From assembly GCA_028689065.1 (NCBI GenBank), contig JAQTWX010000003.1:62001-126000 (forward strand): a DNA stretch of 64,000 bases. The letters are read 5' to 3'. The position numbers and the translations under genes were made by a program. The DNA comes from Candidatus Altimarinota bacterium (GTDB taxonomy: Bacteria; Patescibacteriota; Gracilibacteria; BD1-5; UBA2023). Shown one piece after another: positions 2,299-52,915 of this stretch. Below the pieces are notes generated by a model. The model was not told where the DNA came from and made no database searches. It saw only the letters and a list, made by a program, of their open reading frames with translations. The first letter of the stretch is position 1. Each line of letters begins with the position of its first letter.

Positions 2299-4229
<1,931 letters not shown>

Positions 4230-4230
<1 letters not shown>

Positions 4231-4364
4231 ATTCTTTGAAAAACTTGTTCTTCGAGCTTAAATCTCTGTGCTTTGTTCGCTGTACAGACGTACAAATCAC
4301 CACAGTACTCGATTTGCACACAAATTACTTCTCTTGCCCGTGCTAGTAGGAGTATAAAAGAATC
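4230..4364. repeat. Palindromic element B1 (family B)
   Basis: Shares TCTTCGAGCTTAAATCTC and CGATTTGCACaCAAATTA with element B2 (36753-36900), and a GTAC...GTAC inner hairpin. The outer arms (GATTCTTTG and AAAAGAATC) are specific to this copy. Confidence 0.6.
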
Positions 4365-22388: not shown

Positions 22389-24713
22389 TTATCTTTTTAT
22401 CTTCTTTAAAGTTCCAGGTTTCATATCTTCGAGGAAAAAAGAACGTAGATCATATTCATCTCTGAATTTTATCTCTGTTCCTACTGCAGTTTTTGATATC
22501 ATTTGATATACACCAGTTCTGATAGTTCAGGTATTGGTCTCAAAAGAGATTTGATCATAAACTTTTAATTGCAAGGCTTTAAAGTCTTCCAATGTAACTC
22601 ATCTAGATTCTGGGGTAGTATTTTTCATTGAGGTATTAACAGAAGGAACAACCTCAGGAGTAGGACTTTCAATAGGTTTTTTAACTTCAGGAATAGTCAC
22701 TTCCTCTTCTTTTACAGGAAGAGCTTCAACAGGTTCTGTATCGTTTGAAAGAGGAGCTATTGTAGATTTTTGTTCAGAATCATTTATTTCTTTGATAATA
22801 GCATCAAGTCTTACTACTGCTGGATCTTCTGGATGTTCACTCATATAATTGAGAGCTTTTTTCGCACTATCTCCTCCTGCTGTAAAGAGGTTGTTTAATG
22901 CCATAACACGATACTCTTCCGCTTTTTTACTTTTTGGATTATATGGAGAATTTTCCCATCTTGTTTTGGAACTTCCAGTATATTCACCAGTGGTTTCGTC
23001 TTTAGTTAAATTATTTCCTTGTTCTTTTTCAAATTGTTCTCTTCCTTGTTTTTCTGTTCTATTGAGAGGAGTTATTTCTCCAGTTGTAAGAATCGTTGTC
23101 TCGTTTCATAATTCAGTAGTAGTTGTTGTAAGTCCTCCTTCTTCTGTTGTATCTTCAGGAGTGTTTTCTGTTGTATCTTCAGGAGTGTTTTCTGTTGTAT
23201 CTTCAGGAGTGTTTTCTGTTGTATCTTCAGGAGTGTTTTCTGGAGTAGTAGTTTGAATTTCAAGAGGAGTATTTTCAGGAGTCTCAATAGGAACTTCCAT
23301 CTCTTTTACTCTTAATACTTCTATCATTTTCCCAATCGTTTTTGGTCCTATTTGTCCATTTGCATGTCCTTTTCTTGCAAGACCAGATTCTTCTTGAAAT
23401 TCTTTTACCGCTTTAATGGTATTACTCGTTTTTTCTTTACTGTCTTTATAAACACCATCAATAACACCAGGATTATATCCAAGTTTTGTAAGTGCAATCT
23501 GAACAAGAAGAATATCATTAACAGTATAATTTTTCTTCTCTAGAAGAGGTTGTAATGCGTTGCTAAGTTCAGTAGTATTATTGATCTTTTTGATTTCATT
23601 TACAGCAGTTTCCCGCTCTCTTGTTGGCCAAACTCATTTTTTTTCAGAAAATTTAATATCTTCAAAAAAGTCTTTTGGAGGAAGAATCTCATTAGGAATA
23701 GACTCAACAGTAACAGTAGGAGTAGAAGTAGCAGGGGTAATAATAGCAGGAGTAGGTTCCTCTACTGTTTCTTCTACTGTTTTTGTTCCCTGAATTTGCT
23801 CAGTCTTTTTATTGAGCGCATAGAGATTATTCTCATATATACTTACTTCTTGTTCTTTTTTTTGTGATTCTGAAGAGTTTTCAGAAGAAGTTCTTGTGCT
23901 CTTGATAAGTTCTTGTACACTCATGTATGAACTAAGAAGTCGTTCTATCTTTTTCTTCATTTCTGCATCGGTTGTGCTACTGAGTTTTTCTTCTAATGAT
24001 TCTGTATGATTAGTAATGTATTCATCATTCATTTGTTTCATTTCATCAAGATTTTTTGTCTTGAAGTCATCTACTTTATCTTTTTTTTCTTGGTTAGCAA
24101 TTTTTACATCAATAAGTTTTTGGTTGATGTCCTTATTCTTATTGTCAGATAAATTATTAGAAATATTCGAATTATTATTTGATTCATCGGAGAGATGAGT
24201 AGATTCTTTTACTTCTTCTGATTCTGTTTGAATGCTTTCTATCGATACAGCAGAAAGTTCTTGTTTGAATTTTTCAAGATTTGCAATAGCTTTTTCGATA
24301 AATTCAGGATACAATTCAGTATCGTTGAAATCAACAGTTTCTTTAGTTCCAGTAATTTTTGCTTCCAGATTTTCATAAGCAGCTACTGCAACAGATTGGT
24401 ACTCATTTTGGATACCATTAATATCTCTGTTATTGTTGAGTGTAGCGAGGGTTTTTGAAACATCTGCGAGAAGTTCCGCTTTTTGTTGATTGCTTTTTCC
24501 AACAATATCTGTTTTTCCTTGTTTATATTCACTGATAACAAGAGCAAGTTCTTGTTCTTGTTGAGTAAATATATTTTCCATTTGTTTTTTTGCTGCTTCT
24601 GTTGGTTCTTTTTCGGAAAACATATTATCCCACCAAGAAGTAGATTCTTCTTTTTTAGAAGCTACGGGAGTTTCTTTTGTTGTATTTTGGAGATTATTAT
24701 TTGTTTCTGCCAT
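22389..24713 (-). CDS. Large protein with peptidoglycan-binding-like domain and Thr/Pro/Glu repeats
   Basis: 774 aa, joined across four TGA glycines. Order: acidic Ser/Thr-rich N-terminus with WWDNMF; long helical region (about residues 45-290); a PG_binding_1-like domain about residues 395-455 (LVQIALTKLGYNPGVIDG, AVKEFQEESGLARKGHANG); four exact copies of an 8-residue TPEDTTEN unit; a mixed region; and a C-terminal domain ending in basic residues. No signal peptide, so location is uncertain. Its promoter resembles that of another PG-binding-domain gene at 63631. Possibly a wall-associated or structural protein. Confidence 0.75.
23147..23242. repeat. Four perfect 24-bp tandem repeats within a CDS
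   Basis: Four identical 24-bp units starting at 23147, 23171, 23195 and 23219 encode the TPEDTTEN octapeptide on the minus strand. The exact identity suggests recent expansion and likely length variation between strains. Confidence 0.9.
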
Positions 24714-36325: not shown

Positions 36326-36955
36326 TTATTGTCCAACTATAAAACTATAATCCTTTTTTTCCGTTCCATCACTGAGGGTATTATATATCTTGAGACTTCC
36401 TGTATTATTTTGTACTGTGAAAAAGCTCCAAAATGTCGTTACGCCTGTTTCTGTATCATTCGTGTGTTCTAATAAGATTCCAGTGAAAGAAAGTTCTGGA
36501 TTGTAACTTCCAGTAAAACACCCGAGATTGTCTGTACCAAAATTGAGACTCTGTGTTCCAGTAGTCGCGAGAAGGGCAGGGTATCAAAAAGACTGCATAC
36601 AAGCCTTGGATGAGAGAAAAAGCTCATCTAGTGTTTTTGAATTTCGGAGATTTGTAATCTGGTGAGTATTATTGGAAATGAGAGTAAGGATAGCGAAAAA
36701 GACACTCGAAAGAATAACGGAGGCAACAAGGACTTCGATGAGTGTAAAGCCTCAGAAACTGCGGAAAAGCTCGTTCTTTGAGCTTAAATCTCCGCTTCCT
36801 CACTTTCCGTACAATCGTACGGTTCGTTCTCGGTGACACCACAAGGGTGCGCTATAGCGTCGATTTGCACTCAAATTATTTCGCTTTTGCACAGTTTCTG
36901 AATGAGAGTTTTTATAACTCTCTGAGGAATGTTTTTTTCTTTTGAGGGATTCCAT
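36326..36955 (-). CDS. Type IV prepilin-like protein with palindromic element in its leader
   Basis: 209 aa, joined across three TGA glycines. The class III signal FGGFTLIEVLVASVILSSVF (first Gly from TGA) has the G/F cleavage site and Glu at +5. It starts only at about residue 68, so the leader is far longer than the usual 6-25 residues. Residues of about 20-67 are encoded by palindromic element B2, read through in frame. After the pilin helix comes a globular domain with two Cys. PilD (12338) is the likely processing enzyme. The gene follows rimO by 12 nt. Confidence 0.8.
36753..36900. repeat. Palindromic element B2 inside the prepilin gene
   Basis: Outer arms CAGAAACTGCGGAAAAGC (36753-36770) and CGCTTTTGCACAGTTTCTG (36882-36900) are mostly complementary. 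The core has the CCGTACAATCGTACGG hairpin, GGTGACACCACAAGGGTG and the halves shared with B1 and B3. The element is translated in frame within the pilin leader. Confidence 0.8.
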
Positions 36956-43164: not shown

Positions 43165-43893
43165 ATGAATCTCCTCATCGGTGCAAATTTCAAGATGAAT
43201 AAGACGAATACAGAACTCTTGGAATATTTCCAGACTTTTACTACAGAATATCCAAATACTCCGGGAGTGGATGTTATGATTGCTCCTGCAACTATAGGAC
43301 TTTCAAAGGCAGCAGAATTTATAGAGAATTCTCCTATACATCTTGGGGCACAAAATATGTTTTCAGAACTCTCTGGAGCATATACTGGAGAAACTTCTCC
43401 TCTTATGCTTCAGGATATCAAGTGTGAATATGTTATACTCGGACATTCTGAACGTCGAACGATTTTCGGTGAGACGGATGAGATGGTAAATAAAAAAGTA
43501 AAAACAGCACTTGCGCACAACATCCGTCCGATTCTCTGTATCGGTGAAAACCTCGCTCAAAAAGAAGAAGGACAAACAAAAGATATTCTTCGTGTTCAAC
43601 TCGAAAAAGGGCTCGCAGGAATTGAAGATACAACTAACATTGACATTGCTTACGAACCAGTATGGGCAATCGGAACAGGGAAGTCAGCTACTCCAGAATA
43701 CGCCGAGGAGATTCATATGTTTATTCGAGAAATCCTTGGGCAACAAGAGAGTCGAATAATTTACGGAGGAAGTGTGACAGAAGCGACTGCTCATGAACTC
43801 ATAAGTAAACGTGAAGTGAACGGATTTCTTATCGGTTCTGCTGCACTTGATCCGAGACGACTCATTAAAATTGTAGAAGAAGCAACAAGATAA
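43165..43893 (+). CDS. tpiA: Triosephosphate isomerase
   Basis: 242 aa TIM barrel that interconverts dihydroxyacetone phosphate and glyceraldehyde 3-phosphate. Substrate Asn-Lys in ANFKMNKT (residues 7-14), catalytic His in GHSERR, catalytic Glu in YEPVWAIGTGKSATP with the flexible loop, and phosphate-binding IIYGGSVTEATA and GFLIGSAALDP. Slightly short but complete. No TGA codons. Its stop touches element B3. Confidence 0.97.
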   Translation: MNLLIGANFKMNKTNTELLEYFQTFTTEYPNTPGVDVMIAPATIGLSKAAEFIENSPIHLGAQNMFSELSGAYTGETSPLMLQDIKCEYVILGHSERRTIFGETDEMVNKKVKTALAHNIRPILCIGENLAQKEEGQTKDILRVQLEKGLAGIEDTTNIDIAYEPVWAIGTGKSATPEYAEEIHMFIREILGQQESRIIYGGSVTEATAHELISKREVNGFLIGSAALDPRRLIKIVEEATR

Positions 43894-44033
43894 AATATGA
43901 AATAATCTCGATATTCATATTCAAAGACTCCTTTCCTCATTCTCCGTACAAGTCGTACGGTTCACTTCGGTAACACCATAAGGGTGTGCTATGGCGTCGC
44001 TTTTCATACGAATCTCATCGTTCTTTCATATTT
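43893..44033. repeat. Palindromic element B3 (family B)
   Basis: Arms AAATATGAAA and TTTCATATTT (43893-43902, 44024-44033). The core has CTTTCCTCATTCTCCGTAC, the CCGTACAAGTCGTACGG hairpin, CGGTAACACCATAAGGGTG and GCTATGGCGTCG, closely matching B2. It separates tpiA from the aldehyde dehydrogenase gene. Confidence 0.75.
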
Positions 44034-44077
44034 CTGGAAAATCAAATACTTTATTTAAATTTAATCCTTTTTTTCTT

Positions 44078-51339: not shown

Positions 51340-51367
51340 TTTTGGTCATTTTGATTATTAGTATAAT
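51340..51367 (+). promoter_or_regulatory. tig promoter
   Basis: TTTTGG (51340-51345), 16 bp, TATAAT (51362-51367). The same TTTTGG-N16-TATAAT layout is found before rpsO. Confidence 0.5.
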
Positions 51368-51452
51368 GGTATATTTTATAATATTTTTATTTGTCTTTTC
51401 TCTTGTTTTCCATACAATAACGCCACTTTTACTCAATAATACACTAAGTTTT

Positions 51453-52781
51453 ATGCAAAGTAGTTCTAAAAAACTCAACGCCTATACGGTAGAGCTTACT
51501 ATTAAAGAAAATGCAAAGGAGTTTGAAAAAGCTCGAGCGGAGACTATTGAAAATATCCGAAATAATGCAACTGTTAAAGGATTTCGAAAAGGAGCCCACA
51601 TTCCTGAAGAAGTGATCGTAAAAGAATATGGGGAGGATATGATTCGAGAACGAACCGTAAATACACTTCTTGATAAGATTTATCATAAAGCTCTTCAGAA
51701 AGAGGGAATTATTCCTGTTTCTGCTGGTTCTGTTAAATCAGTGGTTTCAGAATCTCCACTTGAGGTTGTGTTGGAGGTAGAGATACTCCCAGAGGCTGTT
51801 ATTGATGAGAAAAAAATGAAAAAGATTAAGATTAAGAAGACAGAAGTAAAAACAGAAGAAGACGAAGTAACTTCTACTATTGCTGAAATCGAGAAACGAT
51901 TCACTCATTTTCATGAAGCTGGAGCTCATAGTGAAGATGGATTCGATGCTTCTACTGTAGTTATCGAAAAAGGAGATCGTGTAACCATCGATACTCAAGG
52001 ATTCGATAAACAATGAGGAAAGGAAATTCCAGAAACGAAAGTAGATGCATTTCCTCTTGTTATTGGTTCAGGTTCATTTATTCCAGGTTTTGAAGATAAA
52101 ATGCTTGGAAAGAAGGTTGGTGAAGTAGTAGAATTCGATATCACTTTCCCAGCAGATTATCACTCAGAAGAATTCAAGAATCGAAAAGTATTCTTTATGA
52201 CCACTATTTTTAAGATTGAAAAAGCTCATCGTCCAGAATGGACTCCGGAGTTCATTGAACAACTTCGTGGAGTAAAAACAGATTTTGAAGGATTTAAGGA
52301 AGTGCTTCGAAAAGAAATTCAAGCAGAAAAAGACTATCAAGCACGAGCAAAAGATGAACACAATCTCTTAACGGAACTTATGGAAATCACGGAACTTGAA
52401 GTAGGACCATCTCTTATCCAGTCTGAAATTGACCGCGTATTCTCTGAACAGAAACATAATATCGAATCTCAGGGGTATACTATGAAAGATTACCTTTCTC
52501 ATGCAAAAAAAGACGAGGCTCAATATAAGGAAGAAGTAGTAAAACCAGAAGCAGTTCGTCGAGCAAAAGCAGAACTTATCCTTAAAAAGGTTCGAGAAAT
52601 GCTTAATATCGAATCTACAGAAGAAGAAGTAAAAGCAGAAGTAGAAAAAGTAATTGCTGGATATCAAAGCGATAAAGTCATAGAGCGACTCCGAGCGAAA
52701 CTTGTTCCTGGAGATGATTACTATGAGGATATCAAGAATAGAGTTACGTACCGAAAAGTGGTGGACTCATTCTTTGCTTAG
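51453..52781 (+). CDS. tig: Trigger factor chaperone
   Basis: 442 aa with one TGA glycine. Ribosome-binding domain with ATVKGFRKGAHIPEEVIVKEYG (GFRxGxxP motif, abridged), FKBP-type PPIase domain (KVDAFPLVIGSGSFIPGFED, KMLGKKVGE), and a long helical C-terminal domain. Start 51453 (MQSSSKKLNAYTVELT) excludes the hydrophobic upstream frame. First gene before secA. Acts co-translationally at the ribosome exit. Confidence 0.95.
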
Positions 52782-52794
52782 TTGGATATCTCTA

Positions 52795-52915
52795 AAATGC
52801 GAACTTCACGTTCAAACTTCACGTTCCTTTGATTCAGGCTTCATTGTATTTCAGTACGCCTCGCTTCGGTACGCAGTTTTCACGAGAATTTCATCATTTT
52901 TTAGACATTCATGAA
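52795..52915. repeat. Possible diverged family B element between tig and secA
   Basis: Has two AACTTCACGTTC copies, a GTACGCCTCGCTTCGGTACGC hairpin-type inverted repeat, and weak outer complementarity (TCTAAAATG / CATTTTTTAGA). The similarity to B1-B3 is partial, so the assignment is tentative. The frame through it is open and in phase with secA. Confidence 0.35.

Follow-up and report, generated by a model that had tools for sequence, protein, structure and literature searches.

A segment in the leader of a prepilin gene in the window, by which we mean the whole stretch of 64,000 nucleotides from Candidatus Altimarinota bacterium that was analysed, is very probably a copy of a non-autonomous mobile palindromic element that has multiplied in the genus and the family, is translated where it lies inside genes and has its sense strand as the mobile form. 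An earlier note on this DNA had suggested a mobile palindromic element read in frame, similar to the Rickettsia palindromic elements (RPEs), in a bacterium in which TGA encodes glycine, and this suggestion is supported by our data. The note had also considered a selfish element that exploits a processed leader; however, most of the in-gene copies are located inside mature, mostly cytosolic enzymes, and the prepilin leader is one site among many, with nothing special about it. The gene and the parts of its insertion, in coordinates of the window, are:

36326 to 36955, minus strand: minor prepilin or pseudopilin gene, 209 amino acids under translation table 25, with a leader of 69 amino acids
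36752 to 36925, minus strand: whole in-frame insertion, 174 nt or 58 codons, residues 11-68
36752 to 36900, minus strand: palindromic element proper, long form of about 148 nt, 157.5 bits with the covariance model
36892 to 36900, minus strand: left arm of the prepilin copy, CAGAAACTG
36753 to 36761, minus strand: right arm of the prepilin copy, CAGTTTCTG, with the core in between
36902 to 36925, minus strand: mini-hairpin TCAGAGAGTTATAAAAACTCTCAT of about 24 nt, adjoining the left arm

Translation with table 25 confirmed that the prepilin frame is unbroken from ATG 36955 through the element and FGGFTLIEVLVAS to a stop near 36326, with in-frame TGA codons present. The TGA codon at residue 124 (QSFGY) aligns with glycine in all six orthologues, and TGA is therefore read as glycine in this bacterium. 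The cleavage motif FGG^FTLIE corresponds to residues 67-73, and the mature part matched the prepilin methylation motif (PF07963 N_methyl, residues 67-88) above the cut-off; among the NCBIfam profiles, TIGR02532 scored above and GspI below the cut-off. The inserted segment had been estimated at roughly 48 residues but amounts to 58 codons when the mini-hairpin is included. The proposed search for prepilin orthologues that lack the segment was successful: in six orthologues from the genus, the leaders measure 8, 8, 8, 10, 21 and 21 residues, as compared to 69 in the window, and the part of the leader contributed by the element has no match in any of them. A scan of the genome contigs recovered distant prepilins only. 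From the comparison with MKSLEKSG^FTLIE in genome G006, the empty site would have been ATTCC followed directly by GGCTTT. The mini-hairpin may be a small nested insertion. It begins with the motif TCAGA, which recurs immediately past its end.

Folding of the element gave -69.7 kcal/mol, as compared to -41.7 kcal/mol for shuffled sequences (z -6.5). Across copies, the element is a quasi-palindrome of about 120 bp, in short and long forms, with a core of about 101-127 nt and two complementary arms of 8-10 nt. A covariance model was built from 11 copies and used for searches at E <= 0.1, and base pairs were counted in an alignment of 100 copies, mostly the best-scoring ones. Changes on both sides were seen for 32 of the 36 base pairs; paired cells made up 96.4%, against 83.2% in shuffled and 29-54% in slid alignments, and double-change cells numbered 492 against 124, although these counts are biased towards the structure model to which the alignment was fitted. 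Among the non-Watson-Crick cells, G-U (222) far outnumbered A-C (37), which indicates that the structure belongs to the sense strand and that selection or copying has acted on it in single-stranded form. The arm sequences vary from copy to copy while their pairing is kept: 59 distinct 9-nt left arms were found among 75, and the outer helix of 8-10 bp contains at least eight uninterrupted pairs in 75% of the copies, a figure that falls to 8% when the arms of different copies are combined. Within a site the arm sequence is constant, as at gyrB (GGATTCTTT in G000, G001 and G003), and it differs between sites. A CCGTACG...GTACGG helix had raised the suspicion of a group II or group I intron-like RNA; a search of Rfam gave no family match at the gathering score and thus no support for this idea.

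At least 234 copies were identified with the model (E <= 0.1) in the seven genomes of the genus, with at least 9 in G000, 66 in G001, 12 in G002, 31 in G003, 33 in G004, 22 in G005 and 61 in G006. The element is also present in other genera of the family, with at least 14-15 matches each in G013 and G022, and 176 of 194 relatives had no match. Viral contigs, phages and plasmids were also searched, with no match in any of these sequence sets, and carriage by such vehicles was rejected on these grounds. The window itself holds four copies. Two had been reported near 4230 and 43893 and are real (BLAST E = 2e-5 and 3e-16); their description as intergenic holds in that they are located outside genes, but they are not loosely placed, since each abuts a stop codon, of gyrB and tpiA, respectively. 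The covariance model added the fourth. The three copies other than that in the prepilin gene are:

4226 to 4340, minus strand: diverged copy behind the stop codon of gyrB (2314-4224, plus strand), antisense to gyrB
43889 to 44035, minus strand: copy abutting the stop codon of the triosephosphate isomerase gene tpiA (43165-43893, plus strand), antisense to tpiA
52780 to 52912, minus strand: diverged copy abutting the stop codon of the trigger factor gene tig (51342-52781, plus strand), antisense, 44.9 bits

As a separate observation, the window contains 24-nt tandem repeats (TTCTGTTGTATCTTCAGGAGTGTT) at 23118-23261, within an open reading frame of 774 amino acids on the minus strand (22389-24713).

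The arrangement of these three copies is common. Outside gene interiors, 42 of 75 copies have a coding stop near their edge and run antisense to the gene that it terminates. For 41 of these 42 (41/75 non-gene copies), the end of the stop lies between -4 and +3 nt relative to the element edge, an interval in which a coding stop would be expected for about 0.3% of random edges at the same loci. Sense-oriented copies follow a stop in 14 cases, at distances of 7-65 nt, and none abuts it. The same antisense arrangement was seen in most of the copies read from another genus (G013 and G022), for which a less strict coding test was used. The abutted stops are the genes' own, as the C-termini agree with those of element-free sister species. 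The same stop codon may carry a full element, a short remnant or nothing in different species, and copies at gyrB, tig, tpiA and ybaB are common to several species. An artefact of open reading frame length was considered and rejected: antisense shadow frames had confounded a scan based on length, and scoring by codon usage cured this. The notion that the element replaces terminators was likewise abandoned, since an ordinary terminator hairpin is retained behind the element at g153 of G000 and G006 (L118 and L302). The literature searched contained no case of a constant antisense placement in which the gene retains its own stop.

The copies inside genes affect a broad set of proteins. Hosts assigned by profile are RsmA/KsgA, MurG, TrpS, SufS, RadA, AspS, PheT, UvrA, a copper-type P-ATPase (two copies), an RlmD-like protein (two copies), an FtsJ-like protein, RsmB/F, a UPF0020-type methyltransferase, a VWA protein, a UvrD/Rep helicase, an exonuclease-helicase and a SAM methyltransferase. 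Searches of the sister species with element-free queries showed that the in-gene copies are mostly missing from the orthologues, as found for the prepilin, the methyltransferase, 12 further genes and subsequently more. Thus, the filled form was seen only in G003 for AspRS, only in G001 for PheT, only in G006 for UvrA and, among the orthologues found, only in G004 for MurG. RsmA is filled in the sisters G000 and G001 with copies that are near-identical in a tree, and G006 has a copy of a different subtype there. Neighbouring positions of RadA carry an antisense copy in G001 and a sense copy in G003, so that one loop has been hit twice. At the G000 site of the methyltransferase gene, G004 retains only RGSEDLSSKDEFFRDSYQF, a remnant that has been partly deleted and is still in frame. 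The lengths of all inserts are divisible by 3, among candidates that had been picked for open frames, and length variation was observed at the insertion sites. The trait common to these sites is tolerance of length variation, and the element is open when TGA is read as glycine.

Two further observations concern in-frame sequences. In G004 (L172:1742-2704), an element copy precedes peptidyl-tRNA hydrolase as an in-frame fusion that has an ATG a few codons upstream; this is possibly another N-terminal extension. Furthermore, a second, unrelated palindromic repeat, CCTCTCC...GGAGAGG, encodes PSPLLLGEGSGVRG-like peptides in frame and is sometimes located at the site of the main element; it was seen at L223, L230, L231, L232, L237 and L245 (in G005, G001, G004, G005, G005 and G002, respectively), and it hits the genes for RsmA, UvrD, SufS and the UPF0020-type protein.

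Because selecting for open frames would bias the answer to whether the element is translated, the flanks were scored by a codon usage model trained on the genes of the window. Both flanks were coding in one frame for 14 copies, and the element was open in that frame in all 14, with no stops, which favours translation over bypass or splicing. In four other copies, the flanks were coding on one strand in different frames, and each of these copies adjoins the stop codon of the gene upstream. In-frame TGA codons were present in all 25 in-gene copies examined, at 1-5 per copy, so that read-through requires TGA to be glycine and would be impossible under the standard code. Judging from these sequence patterns, the in-gene copies are probably translated as an extra loop or tail of about 34-58 residues in length-tolerant places. 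A stable hairpin within a coding sequence is also seen in the byp elements (PMC6649704), and ribosomes might by analogy hop over the element, or it might be cut out of the RNA. We consider this highly improbable, since neither process demands multiples of 3 or a stop-free sequence, and both are seen; the frame is kept even in the methyltransferase remnant of G004. For the prepilin itself, translation could start at an in-frame TTG inside the element, such that the full 69-residue leader is never made. Such codons are present, and with a start at one of them the leader would be about 22 residues long, close to the longest leaders of the orthologues (21). Nevertheless, this seems quite unlikely to us: ATG 36955 sits 12 nt past the stop of the upstream gene, the first residues, MESLKRKKHSS, are similar to the MKSLEKS start in G006, and no in-frame ATG is present between the element and FTLIE.

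For the mobile element as a whole, we consider it most likely that a non-autonomous sequence spreads through the genome and that its mobile form is the folded sense strand, as RNA or single-stranded DNA. A single-stranded sense molecule is suggested by the retention of pairing with G-U far above A-C. Insertions would survive at two kinds of sites, just behind stop codons and in frame within genes at length-tolerant places, where, owing to the recoding of TGA, codons of the element that are stops in the standard code would be read as glycine. The 58 residues added to the prepilin would fall in the leader and should be removed by the prepilin peptidase. The search for a partner enzyme gave negative results. 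The Y1 transposase domain (PF01797) is absent from five of the seven genus genomes (G000, G002, G004, G005 and G006), which speaks against a Y1/RAYT transposase as the mobiliser. RVT_1 is absent from G000, G001, G002 and G004, and a reverse transcriptase was rejected as the partner since it is missing from the copy-rich G001 and G004; among the reverse transcriptase loci searched, an element copy was nearby only at L371 and L374. The reverse transcriptase at L375 (G006:C1:168800-172500) appears retron-like on visual inspection and has no adjacent element copy. No constant target-site duplication was seen. Nor do palindromic targets supply the arms, as the empty atpB, rpsM and murG sites have no such palindrome, and the filled-minus-empty lengths of 102-129 nt fit arms that belong to the insert.

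Several explanations for the choice of sites can be weighed against this scheme. A DNA transposase might target a motif within stop codons (TA or TAR), with selection purging most other insertions. GTAG-tagged REPs and TA-targeting MITEs provide models for such recognition of short motifs. Furthermore, TAG stops can be provided by the ends of REPs (PMC3733652), the gene flanking a BOX repeat often has its stop codon encoded within the repeat (PMC3049150), and TA is found at the right edge of 48/100 copies. We regard this explanation as possible but doubtful because the left edge is not enriched in TA (29/100), GTAG or CGTC edge tags are rare, and TTA or CTA follows the right arm in 36% of the in-gene copies as compared to 93% of the stop class. 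Alternatively, the element could primarily be a functional, structured 3' end of mRNAs that is selected at stops, with the in-gene copies as by-products. The single orientation of the 41 abutting copies, the sharing of several of these copies across species and the strong covariation would agree with such a role. It is unlikely, however, given that species differ at the same stop, that the ordinary terminator persists where this was checked, so that the element is no replacement, and that the hairpin is nearly symmetric, so that hairpin function alone hardly explains a fixed orientation. Finally, integration might be coupled to translation termination, with the folded sense RNA copied or joined onto an mRNA that ends at its stop codon. 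Reverse transcription primed by the mRNA after stop-codon cleavage, for instance, could generate gene, stop and antisense element in one step, and the resulting chimaera could then recombine home. If true, this would explain the 41/42 stop junctions, the single orientation, the indifference to the sequence past the stop and the structure of the sense strand, but the in-gene copies would need a second route, and we find it very unlikely.

In-frame palindromic selfish DNA is best known in Rickettsia and Wolbachia. The presence of hundreds of copies in an unrelated, recoded lineage shows that in-frame palindromic insertion can recur, and since every in-gene copy examined would be unreadable under the standard code, the reassignment of a codon can make genes accessible to insertions of this kind. 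In the partial in-frame deletions and the shared old insertions, parasitic DNA is seen to turn into lasting protein sequence. The one-orientation rule at stop codons offers a sharp and testable clue to how palindromic elements of this sort choose their sites.

Our literature search, with few subscription papers in its scope, retrieved no description of such elements in recoded Patescibacteria, but several known systems are similar in part. The assignment of the genomes to Gracilibacteria or Absconditabacteria was made from their genetic code. Like the REP/RAYT system, the element is palindromic, lies mostly 3' of genes and has termini that sometimes supply a stop, and G-T pairs have been taken to suggest an RNA or single-stranded DNA role in REPs as well (PMC3733652); however, it is three to six times longer, has no GTAG tag, and the Y1 transposase is lacking in five of the seven genus genomes. 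The element resembles ERIC, BOX, Correia/NEMIS and other MITEs in its size, its non-autonomous nature and the occasional in-frame fusions (PMC3049150, PMC2229807), and BOX also in the frequent overlap with stop codons (PMC3049150). It differs from MITEs in that it has no conserved terminal inverted repeat, its arms varying with pairing kept, and no constant target duplication, and in that many copies are located inside essential genes. The byp elements of Magnusiomyces mitochondria are likewise hairpins within protein genes, but they are reported to be untranslated (PMC6649704), whereas the present element keeps the frame and has no stops. The closest counterparts in the way of working are RPE/WPE, palindromes of about 100-150 bp that are considered mobile on comparative grounds and are found both in frame in conserved genes, as an extra peptide, and between genes (PMC3767692, PMC10969869, PMC2229807, PMC4224334). 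As in RPEs, a short palindromic repeat is dispersed in many copies and inserted in frame in unrelated genes whose orthologues lack the insert. We do not claim membership, since five element peptides matched no NCBIfam family at E<=10, in a release that may or may not hold RPE models, and the CGTC end tag reported for RPEs (PMC3733652) occurs at 1/100 left and 0/100 right edges. By sequence comparison, then, the element works like RPE/WPE, in a different bacterial lineage, with a fixed antisense placement at stop codons and with every in-gene copy relying on TGA being read as glycine.
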